From Wenzhouxiangella sp. (GTDB lineage Bacteria > Pseudomonadota > Gammaproteobacteria > Xanthomonadales > Wenzhouxiangellaceae), in NCBI GenBank assembly GCA_007694055.1, contig RECK01000112.1:1-36642 (forward strand): a DNA stretch of 36,642 nucleotides, in the 5' to 3' direction. The notes under the pieces were generated by a model. That model made no database searches, was not told the origin of the DNA, and worked only from the letters and a program-made list of their open reading frames with translations. Below, piece by piece: positions 24,960 to 36,642 of this stretch. Each line of letters starts with the position of its first letter. The first letter of the stretch is position 1. The translations under genes and the position numbers were made by a program.

Positions 24960-26222
24960 ATGAACAAAGCCCCGCTATTTTTCGTGCGACCGGGCCTCGC
25001 CGTTGCAGGCCTGCTCCTGTTGTCCGTGTCCGCCTCGGCCATGGAGCTGGATGTCGCCCTGGACCTGGCGCTCGAGCGCGACGCCGGCCTCAGTGACCTC
25101 AAGTCCCAGCGCCTGGCCGTTGAGCAGCAGGCCCTGGCCGATGCTGCCCTGCCCGATCCCGAGCTGTTCCTTGGGGCCGAGGGCATTCCCGTGAACGACC
25201 CGTTCGGTTCAGACATGATGACCATGTACATGGTCGGCGTGCGCCAGCAATGGCCAGCCGGTCAGACGCGCCGGCTGGTGGCAGAACGCGGTCAGTCGGA
25301 AAGTCACGTACTTGAATCCCGATCAAGCGCCCGCCGCCTGGAAATACAGCGCGAAGTCCGCCTTGCCTGGCTGGAGTGGGTGGCCGCAGTTCGGGTTTCC
25401 GAAATCGCCGAGCAGGGCCTGGCGGCGCTGGACGAGATGCTGGAACTGGCCACCTCGCGCTTTCGTGCCGGTACCGACCGCCAGCGCGATGTCGACCAGG
25501 CCCGGCTGGAACACGCGCTGCAGGCCGGACGCATCCTCGACCAGATCACCCGCGTCGAAGAGGCCGCCAGCAACCTGGCTCGCTGGACCGGCACCTGGCC
25601 CGAGTCCGGCAGCCAGATCGAATTGCCACGCTGGAGCGCACCGGGAAATTCAGCCGAGCTGCGCGATCGACTGAGTCGCCACCCGGCCATCGAGGCCGAG
25701 ACCAGGGGTCTGGAAACTGGCCGCATCGAGGTTGAGCTGGCACGCCAGAGCTATCGGCCCATGTGGATGGTCGAGGCCGGCTACGGCCATCAGCGCGGCA
25801 GCGACCCGATGGGAGGGCGCATGTCGGACAAGCTGTTCGGCATGGTATCCATGAGCCTGCCCCTGTTTACCGGCAATCGCCAGGACCGGCGCCTGGCGGC
25901 CGCCGAGGCCGAGGCTGACGCCCGCATTCACCAGCGCCACTACCGGCTGCAGGAATGGGAAGGCAACCTGCGGCGCCAGCTCGCCGCGCTGGCCAACCAG
26001 CAGCGTCGCCTGCAGTTACTTGAAGAAACCATCCTGCCGCAATCCGAGCGCACCCTGGAATCCACCCTGCAGGCCTATCGCAGCGACCGGGCCAGCTTCG
26101 ATGAGCTGGTCCGCGCCCGCCTGGCCGAACTTGACCAGCGCATATCCATCATCGAGACCCGCCTGGCCTGGCTGCAAGCCCGCGCCGAACTGGCCTGGCT
26201 GATCGCGGAGGAAAAGCCATGA
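24960..26222 (+). CDS. cusC: TolC-family outer-membrane efflux protein (CusC type)
   Basis: 420 aa with a signal peptide ending [10 protein letters not shown]. Outer-membrane channel of a tripartite heavy-metal exporter: long helices with the repeated OEP pattern, for example [11 protein letters not shown]-like N-terminus ([20 protein letters not shown]), the [15 protein letters not shown] strand, the first helical hairpin (about 100-200), and the second half with [19 protein letters not shown] (about 300) and a final helical pair. No lipobox Cys, unlike E. coli CusC, so more like CzcC. AAGG lies 9 bases before the ATG. Its TGA overlaps the next ATG (ATGA). Symbol is by operon analogy. Confidence 0.87.
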
Positions 26223-27568
26223 GCATTTGCAAACACATGCTGTTAATCGCCGGCATTGCCGGTCTGTTGCTGGTCGGTTGCGGTGACTCGGGCCACGATC
26301 ACAATGGTCATGCCCTTCACAACAACAATGACAACCATGGCGACCACCATGATCGCGAGCATCACGATCATGACCACCATGACCATGATCATGACCACCA
26401 TGACCATGACCACGATCATGATCACGATCATGATCACGACCATCACGACGACTCCATCGCCGACCGGGCCCTGGGTCAGGGCAGCGTCTATACCTGCCCC
26501 ATGCACCCGCAGATCGTGCGCGATGAACCAGGCCGCTGCCCGATCTGTGGCATGAACCTGGTCCAGCGCCAGCGCGATGACAATGGAGAGGTGACCGTGA
26601 CAGTCGACCGCTCGATCCTGCAGACCATGAACCTGCGCACTGCCGAAGTCCGCCGCAGCCGCCTGTTCCGCCGCATCGACACCCTGGGCCGTATCGAAAT
26701 CGACCCCTCGGGCCTGAGTCACGTTCACCCCAGGGTAGAAGGCTGGATCGGCGAGCTGGATTTCAATACCGTCGGCGAAAGCATTGCCCAGGGGCAGCGC
26801 CTGTTTACCTTGTATTCGCCCGAACTGGTCAATGTCCAGGAAGAGCTGCTGCAAGCCGTGCGCTCGGGACGTGAGCCCATGATCCAAGCCGCCCGAAAGC
26901 GCCTGGAAACGCTGGACGTGCAGCCCCGGGTCATCGAGCGCATCGAGCGCGACGGTCGGGTCCTGACCTGGGTGCCCTGGCATGCCGAGCGCAGCGGCTA
27001 TGTCTCGGCCATGGATGCCCGGCGCGGCATGTTCGTCGGCCCGGGCACGGAAATCGCGCAAATCGCCGATCCCGCATCCGTCTGGCTGATCGCCGAGGTT
27101 ACCGGCGGCCAGATCGAGTGGCTGGCCAACGAGCAAGTTGTCGAAATCCAGCGCAGCAGCCACCCCGAAGAACGCCTGCGTGGCCGGGTTGACTTCATTT
27201 ACCCGGAGCTGTCCCCGCAAACCCGCACGGCACGCGTCCGAGTCGTACTCGACAATGATAACGGCAGCCTGCGCCCCGGCGACTGGGCCCGTGTCGCCAT
27301 CTTCGCCGGCCCGCGCCCCGACCTCCTCATCATCCCCACCGAAGCCATCATCCGCACCGGCAGCGAAGAACGCGTGGTCATCCGCGAAGCTGACCATCGC
27401 TTCAGCGTCCGCGAAATCCATGCCGGCATGGAATCCGGCCCCTACACCGCCATCATGCACGGCCTGGAAGAAGGCGAAACCGTGGTCACCTCGGGCCAGT
27501 TCCTGATCGACTCCGAAGCCAGCATCCGCGCCGGCCATGGGCGCATTGGGGGGCAACATGATCATTGA
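26219..27568 (+). CDS. cusB: RND periplasmic adaptor with long His/Asp tract (CusB type)
   Basis: 449-aa lipoprotein (GLLLVGC, Cys21). Residues 26-77 are almost only His, Asp and Asn, a strong transition-metal sponge. Next is a heavy-metal-binding domain [10 protein letters not shown]...[10 protein letters not shown] (91-115), then the usual adaptor parts: beta-barrel/lipoyl/helical hairpin (about 150-330; [32 protein letters not shown]) and a membrane-proximal domain (about 340-435). It ends with HDH and lacks a CusF-like C-terminal domain. Methionines are few in the N-terminus, unlike E. coli CusB, which uses Met to take Cu(I). Overlaps cusC by 4 bases; separated from cusA by a 217-bp repeat element. 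Confidence 0.92.
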
Positions 27569-27597
27569 GGAAAGGATCGAGGAACAAGGTTCAAGGA

Positions 27598-27814
27598 CTG
27601 AAAAGCCTCTCGCAGAGACGCGAAGGTACAGAGGGCGCAAGGGAACAAGAATCCCATATGAAATGAGATATGGGTTCGAGAAGCAATCACCACGGGTTGA
27701 CCGAGAAACATCAAGCTACCGGAATGATGTCCGGCATCCCCATTCAAGGCTCTTGAATTCATTTTCACCTTGGCGCCCTTCGCTCCTTTGCGCCTTTGCG
27801 AGAGGCTTTTTCAA
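27598..27814. mobile_element. MITE-like structured element between cusB and cusA
   Basis: About 217 bp bounded by imperfect inverted repeats of about 45 bases: left arm 27598-27642 (GAAAAGCCTCTCGCAGAGAC...), right arm 27768-27813 (reverse complement starts GAAAAAGCCTCTCGCAAAGG...), differing at roughly 8 positions. The interior has three further perfect hairpins: CCCATAT/ATATGGG (27653-27674), CCGGA/TCCGG (27719-27734) and ATTCAAG-GCT-CTTGAAT (27742-27758). No open reading frame of note is inside. The right arm ends 27 bases before the cusA ATG. The arm sequence resembles CTCGCAAAG-type intergenic repeats common in Proteobacteria (recalled, not searched). Confidence 0.75.
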
Positions 27815-27840
27815 GATCAGCAACTCCAGCGGAGCGCCCC

Positions 27841-30800
27841 ATGATTGACGCCCTCATTCGCTGGTCGATTGCCAATCGGCTGCTGGTGGTGATCCTGACC
27901 ATCGTCACCGGTGTTGCCGGGCTGTATGCGGTGCGTAACACGCCGGTCGATGCCATTCCGGATCTGACCGATACCCAGGTGATCGTGCGGGCCATGTTTC
28001 CGGGTCAGGCGCCACAGGTGGTCGAGGACCAGGTGACCTACCCGCTGACCACGGCGCTGATGGCCGTGCCCGGTGCCCATACCGTGCGCGGTTTCTCCAT
28101 GTTCGGCGACAGTTTTGTCTACGTGCTGTTCGACGACGGCACCGACCCCTACTGGGCGCGCTCGCGGGTGCTGGAGTACCTGTCCCAGGTCGAGGGCCGC
28201 CTGCCCGAGGGGGTGTCGGCCGAACTTGGGCCCGATGCCAGCGGCGTGGGCTGGATTTACAAGTACGCCCTGGTCGACCGAACCGGCAACCATGACCTGG
28301 CCCAGCTCCGCGCCTTGCAGGACTGGTTTCTGAAATTCGAGCTGCAGTCGCTGCCCGGCGTCTCGGAGGTCGCCACCGCCGGCGGCATGGTCCGCCAGTA
28401 CCAGGTAGTGGCAGACCCGATCGCGCTGCGTGCGTATGGGCTGACCTTGAGCCAGCTGGAAAGGGCCATCCGCAGAGGCAACGCCGAAGCCGGCGGCTCA
28501 TTGATTGAGCTGGCCGAGGCCGAGTACATGGTCCGGGCAACGGGCTACATTCAGTCGCTGGATGATCTCAGGCAGATCCCGGTTGGAGTGCTCGAGGATG
28601 GCATTCCGGTGCTGCTCGATCAGGTTGCCGAGATCCGCCGCGGCCCGGCCCAGCGGCGCGGCATCGTCGAACTCGACGGTGAAGGCGAAGTGGTCGCAGG
28701 CATCGTGGTCATGCGCACCGGCGAAAACGCGCGCGCGGTCATCAATTCGGTCAAGCAGCGCCTGGAAGAACTGCGACCGGGCTTGCCCGAAGGCGTGGAA
28801 ATCGTCGAGACCTACGACCGCTCGGCCCTGATCGATCGCTCCATCCGCACCCTGTGGGAAAAGCTGGCCCTGGAATTCCTGATCGTGGTGCTGGTCATCG
28901 GCCTGTTCCTGTGGCACCTGAGATCCTCGCTGGTGCTGTTGATCAGCCTGCCCATGGGCGTGCTGGTGGCCTATCTGGTCATGTACTTCCAGGGCATCAA
29001 CGCCAACATCATGTCCCTGGGCGGCATCATCATTTCCATCGGGGTAATGGTGGATGCCGCCATCGTGCTGATCGAGAACGTCCACAAGCACTTCGAGCGC
29101 GATCCGCCGCAGTCAGAAGAAGAACGCTGGCAGAAGATCGCCGAGGCCACCCAGGAAGTCGGCCGGCCTATCTTCTTCTCGCTGCTGATCGTGGCCTTTT
29201 CCTTTTTGCCGGTATTTGCCCTGCAGGCCCAGGAAGGCCGGATGTTCAGCCCGCTGGCGTTTACCAAGACTTATGCGATGGCGGCTGCGGCCGGCTTGGC
29301 GGTGACCTTGGTGCCGGTGTTGATGGGTTACTTCGTAACCCCGGTGAGAGGGGGAGAGGGGAGAGGGAAGAGGGGGAGTCCGGTGGCGCGGTGGTTGGAG
29401 GCGGGGTATCGGCCGTTGGTGCGGTTTTCGGGGGATCATCCGTGGGTGGTGAGCGTTCTGGCGTTGTTGCTGGTGGTATCGATGCTGTTTCCGATGTCGC
29501 GGCTGGGGACGGAGTTCATGCCCGAGCTGGATGAGGGGGATCTGATGTATATGCCGACCACCCTGCCCGGTCTTTCACCGGACAAGGCGCGCGAGCTGTT
29601 GCAGCAGACCGATGCCCTGATTGCCAGCCATCCGGAAGTCCAGCGCGTGATGGGCAAGGCCGGGCGGGCCGAAACCGCGACTGACCCGGCACCGCTGACC
29701 ATGATCGAGAGCTTTATCACCTTGAAACCCAGATCCGAGTGGCGGCCCGGCATCACCACCGCCGATATCAAGCGCGAGCTTGACGAGCTGGTCCAGTTTC
29801 CGGGCCTGACCAACGCCTGGGTCTATCCCATCCAGACCCGCATCGACATGCTCCAGACCGGTATACGCACCGATGTCGGCATCGAAGTCAGTGGACCGGA
29901 CCTTAGTGTGATCCAGGAAATTGCCGGGCAGGTCGAGGCCGCGGTGGCCGACATTCCTGGCACCACCAACGCATTTGCCGATCGCCCGGCCTCGGGTCGC
30001 TATATCGAGATTGTGCCCGACCGTCGCGCAGCTGCCCGCCATGGCATGAACATCGCCGATGTGCATGACATCGTTCGATTCGGTATCGGTGGCATGAACG
30101 TCACCGAGACTGTGGAAGGGCTGGAGCGATTTCCGGTCAACCTGCGCTTTGGCGCCGACTGGCGCGACTCACCGGAAAAACTGCGCCAGCTGCCTATCGT
30201 CACACCGGCCGGCACCCATATTGCTTTAGGCGAGATTGCGGCCATCGATATTGCCGATGGCGCGGCCATGATCCGCACCGAAAATACCCGCCCGGCCGGC
30301 TTCGTGTTCGTCGATATCGCCGGTCGCGACCTGGCCGGCTGGGTAGGCGAGGCACGCTCGGTGCTGGCCGATCAGGTCGAACTGCCTGCCGGCTACTCGA
30401 TCGGCTTTGCCGGTCAATACGAGTACCTGGAGCGTGCCCGCGAGCGCCTGACTGTACTGATTCCGCTGGTCATCGCCATCATCATCGTGCTGCTGTTGAT
30501 GATCTTCCGTTCCCTGTTCGAGGTTGCCCTGGTGCTGGTCACCATTCCACTGTCACTGGCCGGCGGTATCTGGCTGATGTGGCTGCTGGACTTTCAGATG
30601 TCGGTGGGTGTTGCCGTGGGCTTTATTGCCTTAGGCGGCCTGGCCGCCGAAACCGGGGTGATCATGCTGGTCTATCTCAACAATGCCTATGAAAAATTCA
30701 GAGAAGAGATCGGTGAGCGCAGTTTCACCCGCTCAGACCTGCGCGATGCCATTGTCGAAGGCGCCTGCCAGCGCGTGCGCCCCATCACCATGACCGAAAC

Positions 30801-31017
30801 CACGGTATTCCTGGCCCTGCTGCCGGTGATGTTCTCGACCGGCACCGGTGCCGAGATCATGCAGCGCATCGCCGCCCCCATGGTCGGCGGCGTGTTCACT
30901 GTCTGGCTGGTTGCCCTGCTGGTCATGCCGGCGCTTTACTACCTGTGGCACCGGCGCGGCCTGCCCAGGCAGGCCGACATGGAAACGCAATCAATTCACA
31001 ACGGAGACTCATCATGA
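27841..31017 (+). CDS. cusA: Heavy-metal efflux RND pump (CusA/SilA type)
   Basis: 1058 aa from ATG 27841 (GGAG 8 bases upstream); an upstream in-frame extension enters the repeat element and is rejected. HME-type RND proton antiporter with 12 membrane helices and two periplasmic loops. IDALIRWSIANRLLVVILT opens the protein. The helix-4 segment GVMVDAAIVLIENVHK (about 401-416) matches the Cu(I)/Ag(I) class rather than the DGA motif of Zn/Co/Cd pumps. The second half repeats the fold (GLAAETGVIMLVYLNNAYEK, about 940). Bases about 29330-29545 show different codon use and a homopurine run (see findings). Its TGA overlaps the cytochrome ATG. Copper/silver specificity is inferred. Confidence 0.94.
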   Translation: MIDALIRWSIANRLLVVILTIVTGVAGLYAVRNTPVDAIPDLTDTQVIVRAMFPGQAPQVVEDQVTYPLTTALMAVPGAHTVRGFSMFGDSFVYVLFDDGTDPYWARSRVLEYLSQVEGRLPEGVSAELGPDASGVGWIYKYALVDRTGNHDLAQLRALQDWFLKFELQSLPGVSEVATAGGMVRQYQVVADPIALRAYGLTLSQLERAIRRGNAEAGGSLIELAEAEYMVRATGYIQSLDDLRQIPVGVLEDGIPVLLDQVAEIRRGPAQRRGIVELDGEGEVVAGIVVMRTGENARAVINSVKQRLEELRPGLPEGVEIVETYDRSALIDRSIRTLWEKLALEFLIVVLVIGLFLWHLRSSLVLLISLPMGVLVAYLVMYFQGINANIMSLGGIIISIGVMVDAAIVLIENVHKHFERDPPQSEEERWQKIAEATQEVGRPIFFSLLIVAFSFLPVFALQAQEGRMFSPLAFTKTYAMAAAAGLAVTLVPVLMGYFVTPVRGGEGRGKRGSPVARWLEAGYRPLVRFSGDHPWVVSVLALLLVVSMLFPMSRLGTEFMPELDEGDLMYMPTTLPGLSPDKARELLQQTDALIASHPEVQRVMGKAGRAETATDPAPLTMIESFITLKPRSEWRPGITTADIKRELDELVQFPGLTNAWVYPIQTRIDMLQTGIRTDVGIEVSGPDLSVIQEIAGQVEAAVADIPGTTNAFADRPASGRYIEIVPDRRAAARHGMNIADVHDIVRFGIGGMNVTETVEGLERFPVNLRFGADWRDSPEKLRQLPIVTPAGTHIALGEIAAIDIADGAAMIRTENTRPAGFVFVDIAGRDLAGWVGEARSVLADQVELPAGYSIGFAGQYEYLERARERLTVLIPLVIAIIIVLLLMIFRSLFEVALVLVTIPLSLAGGIWLMWLLDFQMSVGVAVGFIALGGLAAETGVIMLVYLNNAYEKFREEIGERSFTRSDLRDAIVEGACQRVRPITMTETTVFLALLPVMFSTGTGAEIMQRIAAPMVGGVFTVWLVALLVMPALYYLWHRRGLPRQADMETQSIHNGDSS

Positions 31018-31697
31018 ACCTGATCAAGACCATCCTGATCCTCGTCGGCATTGTCACCCTGCTGGTCGGCGGCTTCTGCGCCTTCCAGGCATTCAGTGGA
31101 CGCATGGATGTCTCCGCTACCGGTGAACACGGCACGCTAAGCGCCAGGCTGCTTCAAGGCACCCGCGAAGCAGCCGTGCGCCGCGCCTCGAGGGAAGAAG
31201 CCACGCAACTGCCTGACCTCAATGACCAGGACATCCTGTTCGAGGCCATCGTCGGCTACCAGGACATGTGCGCGGCCTGCCACACCCCGCCCGGCGGTTC
31301 GCCCACGGCCATGAGCCGCGGCCTCAACCCGCCGGCCACCGACCTGGCCTGGGCCGGTGCCAACCGCAGCCCCGAAGAGTTGTTCTGGGTCACCAAGCAC
31401 GGCATTCGCATGACCGCCATGCCAGCCTGGGGACCCACCCACAGCGATGCCGAACTGTGGCCCATCGTCGCCCTGATCACCCGCTTCCCGGACTTCGCCG
31501 AAGCCGATTACGGCAACCTGCTCGAAGCCGCGCAAGAAGCCGGTGTCGAACATCACCATCATCACGATGATCATGATCATGGCCACGAGCATGAGCATGA
31601 GCATCAGCATCACCATGACCATGAAGACGATGATCATCATTCTGACGGTCACTCGACATCGCGGATGTCGACAACCCTGAGCGTGTCGCCTCGATAG
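31014..31697 (+). CDS. Membrane-anchored c-type cytochrome with His-rich tail
   Basis: 227 aa. An N-terminal anchor (TILILVGIVTLLVGGFCAFQAF) precedes a cytochrome c domain with C86-A-A-C89-H90 haem site; Met133 or Met136 in GIRMTAMPAWG is the likely axial ligand. Residues 180-213 hold about 17 His alternating with Asp/Glu, matching the style of the CusB N-terminus. The last 14 residues (STSRMSTTLSVSPR) are encoded on the complement of the neighbouring minus-strand gene, which overlaps the end by 49 bases. ATGA overlap with cusA and SD GGAG upstream show co-expression. A cytochrome in a copper RND operon could oxidise Cu(I) or report respiration-linked metal handling; this is speculation. Confidence 0.88.
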   Translation: MNLIKTILILVGIVTLLVGGFCAFQAFSGRMDVSATGEHGTLSARLLQGTREAAVRRASREEATQLPDLNDQDILFEAIVGYQDMCAACHTPPGGSPTAMSRGLNPPATDLAWAGANRSPEELFWVTKHGIRMTAMPAWGPTHSDAELWPIVALITRFPDFAEADYGNLLEAAQEAGVEHHHHHDDHDHGHEHEHEHQHHHDHEDDDHHSDGHSTSRMSTTLSVSPR

Positions 31698-32074
31698 ATG
31701 ACGGCGAGCTGCTTTTCGCCTTCGGACGTGGCGACATGGCAAACGACCATGTCAATGCCCTTGGGGCGGTTGTTGTTGCAGTCTACCCGTGAGAAACCCC
31801 AGCCCAGCATACGCTCTGAGCCGGTCGACTGCCGGCCAAGGCGCGCGCTCAGGCTTGCAGACACCCTGATATTGATGGTCTGATCGTCGCCAACGATAAT
31901 CCAGGCGTCCACTGACTGACCCCAGAGTTCCAGCTCACAAGGGTACTCATTGCCAACCTTGCTCATGTCAATTTCCGGGCAGTGAAGCTGCATCTGCGGA
32001 TCGGGATCGGTGCTGATGAGATGCGGTCGAGCCGTGCCCAGAGCAGTGAGGCCTTCAGTCCGGGCACTGTGCAC
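31649..32074 (-). CDS. Hypothetical protein, possible downstream part of a split gene
   Basis: 141 aa. The frame is exactly continuous with the upstream 290-aa frame: a TAA (32077-32075) is immediately followed by GTG (32074), with no Shine-Dalgarno for the GTG. A later ATG at 31993 (MQLHCPEIDMSKVG) is an alternative start. The readable core (NEYPCELELWGQSVDAWIIV, RMLGWGFSRVDCNNNRPKG, EKQLAVIYRGDTLRVVDIRD) has four Cys and a beta-rich pattern, consistent with a small periplasmic protein, but no signal peptide is in frame. I do not recognise the family. Its 3' end overlaps the cytochrome gene tail-to-tail. It may be an independent gene or the remains of a longer one. Confidence 0.5.
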   Translation of the reverse strand: MHSARTEGLTALGTARPHLISTDPDPQMQLHCPEIDMSKVGNEYPCELELWGQSVDAWIIVGDDQTINIRVSASLSARLGRQSTGSERMLGWGFSRVDCNNNRPKGIDMVVCHVATSEGEKQLAVIYRGDTLRVVDIRDVE

Positions 32075-32947
32075 TTACAGCATGTGCTCGCCGGCCACCA
32101 GATACAGCTCGATCCTGGCGCTGGAGCGCTCAAAGTCCAGCTTGAACAGATAGGCAGCAGGCAAGCGTCCAGGGTTGAGCTGTTCACCAATTTGAGAAAT
32201 GCTCTGCAGCGGACCACGATCCGCGGCCAGGTCCCTGGCGATCTCTCTGAGCGCAAGGCGGCTGACAGGGTCAGCAAAGCCTGCACCGGTATGACGCAGA
32301 GCCTGGTCAAGATCGCCTGCCAGTAGCGGCTGAAGAAAGCCGCATGCTGCGCTGATCACCTGCTCATTCGTTGGCGGACCATCCTCTCCTGCGATTTCAA
32401 CTGTCACAACTTCCAGCCGGTTATCGTCGTGCACCCTCAAGCCGAAAAGCGCGGTTTCACGGTTTACAAAGCCGGCCTCACAAAGCAAAACGTCGCCCTT
32501 GTCGAGATATCGGTCATCTTCGCAGAGGAAATAGACGGCCGGAATGCCCAACGCCTCTGCCATTTGGGACTCAAACATGAACCGGGCGGTCAGCGCTGGA
32601 GCGGGCGTGAATGACAGATGGGTCCAACGCCATCCATCGTCGAACGGACAGACCTGCAGAACGATACGCCCCTGGGCGGTGCCGGAACGAATTGCATATC
32701 GTCTTTCCTGATACCCGTTTGCTACCGGGAACCGTTGAGCCAGGGTGAAGTGCAGCGGCTCGCTGAACATCTCACGAATGACTTGCAAAAGCTCGACCTC
32801 CATGCTGCCACCGGGTTCCCGCTCCAGGTTGCCGATGACGTCCCATTGCCGGTTTTCAAAGGCGTTGAGTACCCGCTCCGCCAGAAGAACAGGCTCCATG
32901 GCCTGTTCCAGGTCGTCAGATTCGCTGTGGCCGGCCAAAGGCCACAT
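32075..32947 (-). CDS. Hypothetical protein, apparently frameshifted at its 5' end
   Basis: 290 aa from ATG 32947; no recognised family. A strong start signal lies further upstream in another frame: GGAGG (33015-33011), 8 bases, ATG 33002, reading MSSVICRSQLPFLF. If the T5 run at 32965-32961 is read as four T, this joins the main frame as MSSVICRSQLPFLFLLGAMWPLAG, a plausible signal peptide. The gene therefore looks frameshifted, or the T-run length is a sequence error. The body has a WDVIGNLEREPGGSMEVELL segment and VYFLCEDDRYLDKGDVLLCE. It ends at TAA 32077-32075, after which the same frame continues as the next gene. Confidence 0.55.
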   Translation of the reverse strand: MWPLAGHSESDDLEQAMEPVLLAERVLNAFENRQWDVIGNLEREPGGSMEVELLQVIREMFSEPLHFTLAQRFPVANGYQERRYAIRSGTAQGRIVLQVCPFDDGWRWTHLSFTPAPALTARFMFESQMAEALGIPAVYFLCEDDRYLDKGDVLLCEAGFVNRETALFGLRVHDDNRLEVVTVEIAGEDGPPTNEQVISAACGFLQPLLAGDLDQALRHTGAGFADPVSRLALREIARDLAADRGPLQSISQIGEQLNPGRLPAAYLFKLDFERSSARIELYLVAGEHML

Positions 32948-33633: not shown

Positions 33634-33735
33634 TTTGTCAAGTTTCTGATGTTGGTGGATTTGTGCTACTATTTTTGTCGTTTGTCCGAATAAAAATCAA
33701 CGGATCCTGCACGGCTTGCGAGAACAGGATTGAGC

Positions 33736-35853
33736 GTGTCGAAAAGTGCCCTTGTCAAATTGCTGGTCGCGCTCCTGCTTGGGTCGGCAGCACTGCTTGC
33801 CCAGGCGCAACGCGCGGTTCCCGTTGAATCGCCTAGCACGCTGCCCTTGCTACCGCGCGGACTGGTTCTGGGGACGACCCTGTACGGTAGCGCCAGCCTT
33901 GCTGCTTTGAACGACAAGACTTTGGAGCGCTTTGAAAACGCCGCTGCAAACGGATTGAGCGGATTTACCCTGTACCTGGACTGGCCGGACCTGGAAGCAG
34001 CGCCTGGCCAGCTCGATGTCGAGGCATTGGTCAGCCAACTCGATCCGCTGGCGGAGCGCGGTCTGGCTGTTTTTGTCAACATTACCATCGGCAACATTGG
34101 CCACTACAGCGTGCCTGCCGACTTGTCCAACGGTGTGGGGGGGCTGGCTGTCGGAGTCAACCTGAACGATTCCGATGTGGTCGCGCGTTTTCTCGCCCTC
34201 CTTGACCAAGTCGTTCCGCTGCTGGCCGAGCGCGGAAGCTTTCTGCTGGGCCTGGGCAACGAAATCGACGAGCGGCTCGATGACGCCCCAGAAAGTGAGC
34301 TCGCGGCTTACGCCGAATTGGTCGCTGCGGCGCGCGAGCATATGCAGACTCTGCGTCCGGATCTGCCGGTGGCAGTGACGTTGACCTCCTCAGCCGTTCG
34401 CGAGCAAACCATGACCTGGCAGGTCATGCGTGAGGTCGCCGATCATGTGGCGATCAACTATGCACCGATCGATGCCGAATGGCGCGTGCTGGCGCCTGAA
34501 TTGATCGCCGATGACTTCGACAAAGTACTGGACGCTTTTGGCAACGGTGTGCTTGTCATTCAGGAGCTGACCTGTCCGTCCGCTGAGTCGATGGGAGCAT
34601 CACCCTGGTGGCAATCCCAATGTCTGGCCGTCCTGCTGGAGCGGTTGCGCGCGCATCGCCAAACACGGTTTGTCTCCCTGTTTTCGCTTGAGGATCTGGA
34701 CGGAGCCACCTGCCAGGCCGTGCAAGCGGTCTTCGAGCCCCTCCTGACTGACGCGCCGGCGGATTTTTCAGAGCGCTTTCGCGAGTACCTTTGTACACTG
34801 GGAATTCTGGATTCAGACGGCAAACCGAAACCCGGTTGGGGCATTGCGCTCGATTGGGTCGCCAAGTTTCGCGCAAGCCAAACTCGTTTGCAGATGCTGG
34901 GGCGCCACGACGAGGGCTCGAATCGCAGACTGTTGCTGAGGCCGCCGCCGAGCGGACGGCAGGAGCGCTTTCTACCCTTGACCGCCACCACCGGTGAGCA
35001 GCGACGCTATCAGGTCCATGTTCCGGCTGATCTACCCCCTCCGGGCGGGTGGCCGGTCGTGCTCATTTTTCACGGTGGTGGTGGCCGTGGCGATAGCTTT
35101 CGGGAAGAGTCGCGCTGGGACGAAGTCGCCGAAAGCCAGAATTTCGTCGCGGTCTTCGCCGAAGGTACCCGACCGGATCCGGAGAGTCCGCCGGCGTTTA
35201 GCGCCAACCCGCAGACCTGGAACGACGGCACCGGCCGCTCGGCCATTGGCGCGGTTGATCGAGGTGAAGACGACTTGGCCTACGTTCATGCTGTGCTCGA
35301 AGACCTGGCAGGCTGGATGCCGATCGCATCTGATCGGATCTATGCCACCGGGTTTTCGAATGGTGCCGGCATGACGCTTCATCTGGCGCGCAACATGCCG
35401 GAACGACTGTCTGCCGTGGCGGCGGTGGCCGGCAAGGATATCCAGATGCCTTTACCGGATGTCGATGAGTTGCCTTCAATCCTATACATGACCGGTACCG
35501 AAGACCCCCTCAACCCGATTGATGGTGGGGACGTGTTCCTGTTCTGGAATTTCCTCGGCAACTTCCCGCCCATCGAGACCCTGTTTGAACGTTGGCGGAC
35601 GGGTCTCGATTGCCCTATTATGCCGACCTCTATCGAAGCGTCATTAGCGGATACTGAAGCGCGCCGATATTTTCCGTGCCACGCCAACACCACGGCTGAA
35701 TTCTGGCTGCTGGAAGGCCATGGCCACCACTGGCCAGGCGGCAGAAATCTTCTGGCACCGTCTTTCTGGATCGGTCCCGACGCCAGCGAGCTTGACGCTA
35801 CCAGAACCATCTGGTCTTTTTTTGTCCAGAGCCGGCGAGTTGGAGTCCGGTAG
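33736..35853 (+). CDS. Secreted fusion: glycoside-hydrolase-like barrel plus CE1/LpqC-like esterase
   Basis: 705 aa from GTG 33736 (AGGA 6 bases upstream; TTG 33730 is an alternative). Signal peptide: SALVKLLVALLLGSAALLAQAQ. Residues about 40-380 look like a clan-A TIM barrel: GLVLGTTLYGS, FTLYLDWPDLE, VFVNITIG, GLGNEIDER (E176, acid/base position) and VLVIQELTCPS (E277, nucleophile position). Residues about 420-700 are an alpha/beta hydrolase of the LpqC/feruloyl-esterase/PHB-depolymerase type: IFHGGGGRGDSF oxyanion loop, Ser541 in GFSNGAG, Asp590 in GTEDPLNP and His664 in GHGHHWPGG. Together this suggests a two-activity polysaccharide enzyme. Substrate unknown. It stands alone between mobile-DNA remnants. 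Confidence 0.82.
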   Translation: MSKSALVKLLVALLLGSAALLAQAQRAVPVESPSTLPLLPRGLVLGTTLYGSASLAALNDKTLERFENAAANGLSGFTLYLDWPDLEAAPGQLDVEALVSQLDPLAERGLAVFVNITIGNIGHYSVPADLSNGVGGLAVGVNLNDSDVVARFLALLDQVVPLLAERGSFLLGLGNEIDERLDDAPESELAAYAELVAAAREHMQTLRPDLPVAVTLTSSAVREQTMTWQVMREVADHVAINYAPIDAEWRVLAPELIADDFDKVLDAFGNGVLVIQELTCPSAESMGASPWWQSQCLAVLLERLRAHRQTRFVSLFSLEDLDGATCQAVQAVFEPLLTDAPADFSERFREYLCTLGILDSDGKPKPGWGIALDWVAKFRASQTRLQMLGRHDEGSNRRLLLRPPPSGRQERFLPLTATTGEQRRYQVHVPADLPPPGGWPVVLIFHGGGGRGDSFREESRWDEVAESQNFVAVFAEGTRPDPESPPAFSANPQTWNDGTGRSAIGAVDRGEDDLAYVHAVLEDLAGWMPIASDRIYATGFSNGAGMTLHLARNMPERLSAVAAVAGKDIQMPLPDVDELPSILYMTGTEDPLNPIDGGDVFLFWNFLGNFPPIETLFERWRTGLDCPIMPTSIEASLADTEARRYFPCHANTTAEFWLLEGHGHHWPGGRNLLAPSFWIGPDASELDATRTIWSFFVQSRRVGVR

Positions 35854-35864
35854 GCGACAACAAC

Positions 35865-36089
35865 AAAAACCAGGACACACTGAGCGCCAAAAACCGGGAC
35901 ACACATTATTTGAAGCCCTCGCAGCCGACGCTGAATGGATGTGAAGTCGGATTCGGCCAGGGGAAAAACGGGAAAAACCGCAAAAACCGGGACACAAAAA
36001 CCGGGACACACAAAAACCGGGACACACATTATTTAAAGCCCTCACAAAAACCCTCACAAAAACCGGGACACACATTATTTGAAGCCCCT
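35865..36089. repeat. Cluster of GTGTGTCCCGGTTTTT repeats
   Basis: Six copies of AAAAACC(G/A)GGACACA(C) on the plus strand start at 35865, 35889, 35982, 35996, 36012 and 36058; the first has CCAGG. Copies at 35889, 36012 and 36058 extend into ATTATTT(G/A)AAGCCC, a longer 30-base unit. Copies at 35982, 35996 and 36012 are in direct tandem at 14-16 base steps. Spacing is irregular, so it is not a CRISPR. It lies 3' of the transposase at 36263. No gene is supported in 35854-36262; 36090-36262 shows nothing recognisable. Confidence 0.85.
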
Positions 36090-36262
36090 CGCACGCCGCC
36101 CCCGTCCACTTTCCGCTCAGAATCCCCCGCCAGCACTGCCTGATTCACCCGAAATCGCCTCTTGGCGCCAAACAACACGCCTCGCGCCTGAAAATCCCAA
36201 ACGCCAGACACGCCAAATCCCGGAACAAGCCGGTCAACTCGTCAATCTCTTGAGGGCTTGGT

Positions 36263-36642
36263 TCAGGTCGGTCGTTCGCGCAGGATCTTTTTCGCCACTT
36301 CGCTGGCCACTCCCTTCATCCAGACCTGGCCCAGGGACTCGGCCTTGGCCATCAGGGCTTCAGCAGAACCGATGGCGCGGTAGTAGAAGCTCTCGGTACC
36401 CTGGACCTGCCGGACCCAGGCTTTGTGGTGATCGGCTACGTCCCAGATCGCGGCCGGCGGTGCGCGATGGTTGCTTGCAATGGGCTTGAGCGTGCCGCGC
36501 TTGTCGGGCCGAGATTGCTCGCCGGTCCACTGCACCAGCTCGATGTAGCTCGATTCGGTCATGCCCATCAGCGCATCGGCATCCAGGCCGGCGACCGGTT
36601 TCAGGGGGCGGTCCAGCAGTGTCCGGCCCGGCTTGATCTTTG
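36263..36642 (-). CDS. Y1/REP-type transposase, C-terminal part
   Basis: The frame is open to the window end; 125 codons are visible and the start lies outside. The tail has the signature of IS200-like Y1 (REP-associated) transposases: SYIELVQWTGEQSRPDKRGT followed by a helical AIWDVADHHKAWVRQVQGTE segment and FYYRAIGSAEALMAKAESLG. The HUH catalytic motif and tyrosine would be upstream, outside the window. The repeat cluster just downstream fits the REP/transposase pairing. An internal ATG at 36568 is not the true start. Confidence 0.65.
   Translation of the reverse strand, partial: KIKPGRTLLDRPLKPVAGLDADALMGMTESSYIELVQWTGEQSRPDKRGTLKPIASNHRAPPAAIWDVADHHKAWVRQVQGTESFYYRAIGSAEALMAKAESLGQVWMKGVASEVAKKILRERPT

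Follow-up and report, generated by a model that had tools for sequence, protein, structure and literature searches.

A clan GH-A-type barrel joined to a PHA-depolymerase-like serine esterase in Wenzhouxiangella: a candidate secreted bifunctional enzyme

A gene found near the end of a Wenzhouxiangella contig probably encodes a secreted two-enzyme protein, in which a barrel of the retaining clan GH-A type and a serine esterase would jointly attack a single ester-substituted glycan. According to this proposal, the protein would leave the cell by means of an N-terminal segment resembling a signal peptide, and the barrel would be a beta-glycosidase of the retaining type, representing a small lineage beyond the glycoside hydrolase (GH) models of Pfam and NCBIfam, with E176 acting as the acid/base and E277 as the nucleophile. 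The esterase, through the residues S541, D590 and H664, would take acyl or other ester substituents off the glycan, and the barrel would cut the backbone of that same glycan. The folds and the catalytic residues are supported by structure modelling, homology and conservation; we infer that the protein is secreted and active, that its two activities are coupled, and what kind of substrate it acts on. The protein is thus put forward as a real candidate for a bifunctional enzyme with a GH-A-type barrel. The window, that is, the whole stretch of DNA analysed here, comprises 36,642 nucleotides and corresponds to the entire contig. The features considered are as follows:

33736..35853, + strand: complete gene encoding 705 aa, with a GTG start (open frame; fused orthologue L003/L010)
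33736..33810, + strand: signal-peptide-like N-terminus, aa 1-25, ending in AQAQ (judged by eye)
33811..34875, + strand: (beta/alpha)8 barrel of the clan GH-A type, spanning about aa 26-380 (model, fold search and profile)
34261..34263, + strand: codon of E176, candidate acid/base in the GNE motif, just past beta-4 (model, alignment and conservation)
34564..34566, + strand: codon of E277, the proposed nucleophile, located in beta-7 (model, alignment and conservation)
34876..34965, + strand: linker, about aa 381-410 (comparison of the two fused proteins)
34966..35835, + strand: serine esterase domain of the alpha/beta-hydrolase family, about aa 411-700, with S541, D590 and H664 (family models, solved relatives and alignment)

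Two in-frame starts can be considered for this gene, the GTG at 33736 and an alternative TTG at 33730. Since an AGGA, recognised by eye, ends six bases upstream of the former, GTG 33736 fits the start adopted in a first-pass annotation of this DNA, which had described the product as a secreted glycoside-hydrolase-like plus esterase protein. The five catalytic residues named there were found in the translation exactly where they had been placed, E176 in the context GLGNE, E277 in VIQE, S541 in GFSNG, D590 in GTED and H664 in GHGH.

In the source draft genome (4.15 Mb), the window gene was the sole match found, and a fused gene encoding 720 aa (L003/L010) was identified in a second Wenzhouxiangella metagenome-assembled genome (MAG). 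The barrels of the two proteins are 69% identical and the esterases 72% identical, and the linker, at 50% identity, is more divergent than either of them. Between the two fused genes, 29% of the barrel residues and 27% of the esterase residues differ. By the Nei-Gojobori method, their comparison gave a dN of 0.20 and a dS of 1.00 for the barrel (dN/dS of about 0.20), and a dN of 0.18 and a dS of 1.08 for the esterase (dN/dS of about 0.17), a pattern consistent with purifying selection acting on both domains. The existence of the second fused gene and the low dN/dS indicate that both halves are maintained and that the fusion did not arise by misassembly of a single MAG; on the same two grounds, a chance or wrong-strand ORF was ruled out.

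The N-terminal half had been assigned to a TIM barrel on motif spacing alone, a weak point that is now answered by a structure model and by profile comparison, both of which uphold the barrel. In the AlphaFold2 model, built from three sequences (pLDDT 69, pTM 0.72), eight strands alternate with helices. Residue E151 of the model, corresponding to E176 of the protein, lies two residues past strand 4 (144-149), and E252, corresponding to E277, lies on strand 7 (248-253), so that the predicted positions of the glutamate pair agree with those expected when the pair was first proposed. This placement on strands 4 and 7 is the arrangement of clan GH-A, and the predicted model displays the features of that clan: a (beta/alpha)8 fold, an Asn-preceded Glu at the end of beta-4 and a Glu on beta-7. 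The last 73 residues of the model (293-365, after strand 8, corresponding to protein aa 318-390) have pLDDT below 50, and the model is of low confidence from helix 8 onward. The model of the full-length protein (pLDDT 49) is too poor for the two domains to be placed relative to each other.

A Foldseek search with the barrel model returned 613 PDB matches at E <= 0.001, the best 50 of which were mostly GH1, GH5, GH35, GH53 or PslG structures, together with three Cwp19 rows. GH1, GH5, GH35, GH53 and PslG all belong to clan GH-A. Across the best 50 matches, the VIA-align Z values ranged from 19.5 to 20.8 and were tied over GH1, GH5, GH10 and others, for which reason the assignment of the barrel to one named GH family was set aside; the absence of a family among the VIA-align matches listed excludes nothing. 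The first VIA-align row was alpha-Klotho, and beta-Klotho was also near the top. Both are GH1-like proteins that are mainly non-catalytic and, because they head these matches, the fold alone is no proof of catalysis. The N and the E of the GNE motif and the second glutamate are, for their part, invariant in all 11 aligned barrels, stand-alone ones included. This 11-row alignment left out L016 (the same protein as L011), the GH53-like L018 and L019, and the partial-length matches. Altogether, the barrel is regarded as a candidate member of clan GH-A and a putative retaining beta-glycosidase.

The first-pass annotation had left the barrel without a named GH family, and this agrees with the Pfam and NCBIfam searches, in which no GH model matched the barrel half; neither PF07745 (GH53) nor PF00332 (GH17) was matched by the window protein. 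The sole Pfam match in this half was RskA_N (17.5-18.5 bits, cut-off 27), which was dismissed as chance. Compared with the PDB, the profile of 11 barrels matched 7bob at 2.5e-5, over the acid/base half, the GH53 enzyme 1r8l at 1.6e-4, a beta-galactosidase at 2.0e-4 and PslG at 0.0015, these matches being mostly partial. Weak hits outside the clan were also obtained with a seven-row profile, namely beta-amylases at 0.087 and IFT20, a non-glycosidase, at 0.37. Among the relatives of the barrel, scores against PF07745 (cut-off 24 bits) reached 26.2 in L018, 23.6 in L046 and 21.6 in L047, and one of the 11 barrels hits TIGR03356, a GH1 model, with an E value of 7.1e-7. Considering these profile matches and the GH53 and GH1 scores of its relatives, the barrel is best described as a GH-A relative outside the Pfam and NCBIfam families.

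Two of the proteins encountered, L018:1390-3006 and L019:1078-2142, which come from genomes of the same family (G032 and G036), are GH53-like and carry an extra N-terminal region before the barrel; the former lies just above the PF07745 cut-off. Three related loci (L007:1501-1872, L008:1334-1708 and L009:1501-1857) gave weak barrel matches in a single-sequence search, with E values from 8e-6 to 3e-4 and 33-36% identity over about 111-116 aa, in a frame that presumably encodes an EgtD-like methyltransferase. Being absent from the profile search, these matches were treated as probable chance hits.

The survey of other genomes that had been proposed for this architecture was carried out at several taxonomic levels. 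With a five-row barrel profile, 7 of the 43 genomes of the family gave matches at E <= 0.001, five of them long (G000, G028, G030, G034 and G065); G036 contained a remote barrel and a partial match, and G032 a partial match only. Judging from the lengths and translations of the ORFs, 2 of these 43 genomes (the window and L003) carry the fused form, and three more (L004, L005 and L011/L016) carry the barrel alone, encoded in frames of 406-412 aa. Over the aligned regions, barrel identities to the window protein were 68% for L003/L010, 52% for L004, 49% for L005 and 40% for L011, and fell to 19-29% for the wider relatives L006, L020 and L044-L047. In a phylum-wide sample, the five-row profile matched 2 of 398 genomes, the source genome and G360, and in a class-wide search the seven-row profile matched 21 of 369 genomes, the source genome included. 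The class-wide search added four full-length barrels, in frames of 520, 418, 373 and 632 aa, and no Pfam esterase family was found in these four frames. A scan of public genomes recovered two loci, one fused (L010) and one with the barrel alone (L011). The fusion having been seen in two genomes only, functional coupling of the two domains is not broadly conserved. A mobile or phage origin was rejected, as no barrel match was found in plasmids or phages and none of 10 pattern matches in viral contigs was confirmed.

The C-terminal half is, judging from family models and solved relatives, a serine esterase of the PHA-depolymerase/feruloyl-esterase-like type. Its nearest family model was NF050058, matched over nearly its whole length (positions 4-276 of 276; 4.6e-36) with 124.7 bits against a cut-off of 150, and the fused orthologue L010 scored likewise below that cut-off (124.6 bits). 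Other specific models also stayed below their cut-offs in the window protein: TIGR01840 with 30.8 bits (cut-off 107.85), PF10503 with 16 bits (cut-off 23) and PF00756 with 21 bits (cut-off 22), the last of which is exceeded in the orthologue L003 (23.7 versus 22). PF02230, a general model, was above its cut-off (27.2 versus 23 bits). Among solved chains, the nearest were 8daj, an esterase of the PHB depolymerase family (9.4e-11), and the feruloyl esterase 9j07 (9.1e-10). The complete Ser541/Asp590/His664 triad that had been proposed was borne out, since these residues align, by eye, with residues of 9j07 and the triad is invariant in the five sequences aligned, taken from 18 places at which the domain was matched in 15 of 61 genomes of relatives. 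The order of the triad of type 1 PHA depolymerases, lipase-box Ser, then Asp, then His, is kept. The label of CE1/LpqC type initially given to this domain stands only in part: TIGR01840, PF10503 and PF00756 have sub-cut-off scores, NF050058 is the nearest model, and feruloyl esterase 9j07 is one of the nearest solved chains. Weaker esterase relatives were detected in 16 plasmid records, all below 60% identity, several of them annotated as PHB depolymerase family esterase.

The affinities of this domain raise the question of whether the esterase, acting like a secreted depolymerase of polyesters or PHA oligomers, is the working enzyme and the barrel a degenerate clan GH-A domain that serves for binding only. 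It is true that a PHA depolymerase is the best family model for the C-terminal domain, that the ORFs of the related esterases L028, L029 and L033 continue past the esterase domain at the C-terminus and lack a barrel, and that alpha-Klotho, a mainly non-catalytic GH1-like protein, tops the VIA-align rows of the barrel. However, the two glutamates proposed as catalytic do not vary among the 11 aligned barrels, including those that occur free of an esterase, and the barrel and the esterase have similar dN/dS values (0.20 and 0.17). Moreover, extracellular short-chain-length PHA depolymerases carry a linker and a substrate-binding domain at their C-terminus, whereas the sub-cut-off match to NF050058 ends at residue 696 of 705, and a protein that ends so soon after its esterase domain has no room for a C-terminal PHA-binding domain. 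For these reasons, we consider a binding-only barrel unlikely and keep to the reading of two cooperating enzymes. The C-terminal extensions of L028 and L029 contain a W(F/Y)DP...GEG motif, which illustrates a different architecture for the same esterase.

A further proposal, which also seems improbable, retains catalysis in the barrel and makes it a transglycosylase or remodeller, of the GH17 or PslG type, of the bacterium's own glucan or exopolysaccharide, with the esterase trimming acyl groups. The barrel profiles do pick up the beta-1,3-glucanosyltransferase 4wtp (E value of 0.0019 with the 7-row profile and 0.0056 with the 11-row profile) and PslG. When the 11-row profile was applied to the phylum-wide sample, 65 of 398 genomes matched, nearly all partially and at the clan level. 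The profiles also gave many partial matches located in open frames of about 900 aa; the two of these examined for fusions, L048 and L049, both prove to be GT2 proteins that include a GH17 region, with PF00332 exceeding its cut-off in L048 but not in L049. Nevertheless, the similarities to 4wtp, PslG and the GT2-GH17 proteins are partial and of clan level, and the window yielded no recognisable exopolysaccharide gene, although the contig stops shortly after the fused gene.

Under the preferred reading of a glycosidase and an esterase directed at one glycan, the nature of that glycan can be approached from the genome. The first-pass annotation had pointed to acylated xylans or mannans, a claim weakened by the source genome (96.86% complete, 459 contigs), in which the three hemicellulase families searched, GH10, GH43 and GH5, gave no match at E <= 0.001, although they were matched in 4, 5 and 6 of 14 control genomes, respectively. 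An enzyme for plant hemicellulose, acting on acetyl- or feruloyl-xylan or mannan, is therefore hardly to be expected, even though one of the closest structures to the C-terminal domain is a solved feruloyl esterase and a Flavimarina protein combining a xylosidase with an acetylxylan esterase is described (PMC12247016). Nor could any xylan or mannan gene be made out in the window, although the contig ends about 0.8 kb past the gene. A cultured soda-lake Wenzhouxiangella of a different strain, AB-CW3, is described as proteolytic and preying on Gram-positive cells; it failed to grow with 18 sugars and with starch, slight stimulation by maltose and dextrin being the sole exception (PMC7691419). 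Taking these growth data together with the absence of GH10, GH43 and GH5 matches, an ester-substituted microbial or environmental glycan is favoured, and a microbial exopolysaccharide or another environmental glycan is the more likely substrate, as compared with plant xylan.

The contig continues for only about 0.8 kb past the gene, which truncates the gene context. Upstream, positions 24960-31697 harbor a metal-efflux-type set formed by an outer membrane factor, an HlyD-type fusion protein with a heavy-metal-binding domain and an AcrB-family pump; after this set comes an ORF resembling cytochrome c, whose tail is very rich in His (HHHHHDDHDHGHEHEHEH...). Between this set and the gene, the ORFs 32078-32947 and 31652-32074 (minus strand) had no Pfam match. 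Just downstream of the gene, the stretch 35863-36092 contains an 18-nt unit (CAAAAACCGGGACACAC-type) in six copies, three of which are extended to 36 nt with ATTATTT(G/A)AAGCCC (86-100% identity); these repeats are presumably REP-type or transposon-linked. Beside them, the minus-strand ORF 36266-36640 showed a weak DUF2255 match below the cut-off and no NCBIfam match. In the second fused locus, a fragment resembling a TonB-dependent receptor (L010:1090-2010; PF00593, 306-aa ORF) lies on the same strand as the fused gene and shares a few bases with its beginning, which could hint at the uptake of a breakdown product; nothing TonB-like was seen by eye before the window gene. The neighbours in L010 also include pirin and DUF6607, and L021 carries a BNR-repeat protein and a photolyase-like ORF. 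The gene neighbours scanned point to no single pathway.

A bolder proposal, advanced only tentatively, is that the barrel founds a new GH-A family, small and mostly stand-alone in the proteobacterial genomes searched, which was joined to a depolymerase-type esterase in two genomes, at least one of them a Wenzhouxiangella. There the two domains would deacylate a microbial exopolysaccharide and cut its backbone in a coupled attack. If the barrel is active, it would represent a further, unassigned branch of clan GH-A that carries its own hint about the substrate, since the fused esterase implies an ester-substituted glycan, and the fusion could then help to name the substrate of the stand-alone relatives. 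An active barrel would also mean that glycans are attacked within a genus of which the cultured strain, AB-CW3, is described as proteolytic (PMC7691419). There is a precedent for such a family, as GH148 was defined earlier within clan GH-A from an unassignable protein (PMC5725463).

Several known systems resemble parts of this protein. On the side of the barrel, the GH53 endo-beta-1,4-galactanases, such as that of Bacillus licheniformis (1r8l/2gft), share the clan GH-A fold. In the alignment with 1r8l obtained from the 11-sequence profile, E176 corresponds to E165, which we take to be the acid/base, and E277 to E263, named as the nucleophile in the title of the 2gft entry. In contrast, the galactanase chains have no fused esterase, and PF07745 is not matched by the window protein. 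In the GH17 glucanosyltransferase 4wtp, GSE and SETGWP motifs align at the two glutamates of the barrel, but the profile overlap with 4wtp and with the GT2-GH17 membrane proteins is only partial, and PF00332 does not match the window protein. PslG, which is presumably a GH39 enzyme, and the exo-beta-1,4-mannosidase 7bob share the fold and are leading Foldseek matches, although their profile matches are weak, their rows are 16-18% identical to the barrel and the window protein has no Pfam GH assignment.

Regarding the other half, NF050058, which describes the type 1 catalytic domain of extracellular short-chain-length PHA depolymerases, matches the window esterase over nearly the full length of the model at a sub-cut-off score, and differs in that the window esterase is fused to a GH-type barrel. 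The solved esterases 9j07/9j08 and 8daj have low similarity to the window protein, and their chains, of 326 and 302 residues, are too short to hold a fused barrel. Polypeptides uniting a glycosidase and an esterase are already known (PMC12247016, PMC8040265). Among them, Fll1 joins a xylosidase to an acetylxylan esterase on one polypeptide, like the window protein, but its esterase belongs to family CE3 and its context is xylan (PMC12247016). Among the papers listed on GH-esterase fusions (GH53, unassigned clan GH-A with CE, CE1-GH10 and CE1-xylanase), none was seen to describe the present architecture. The novelty lies in this lineage of barrels and in its combination with an esterase resembling PHA depolymerases, the fusion of a glycosidase with an esterase being itself known from other systems.
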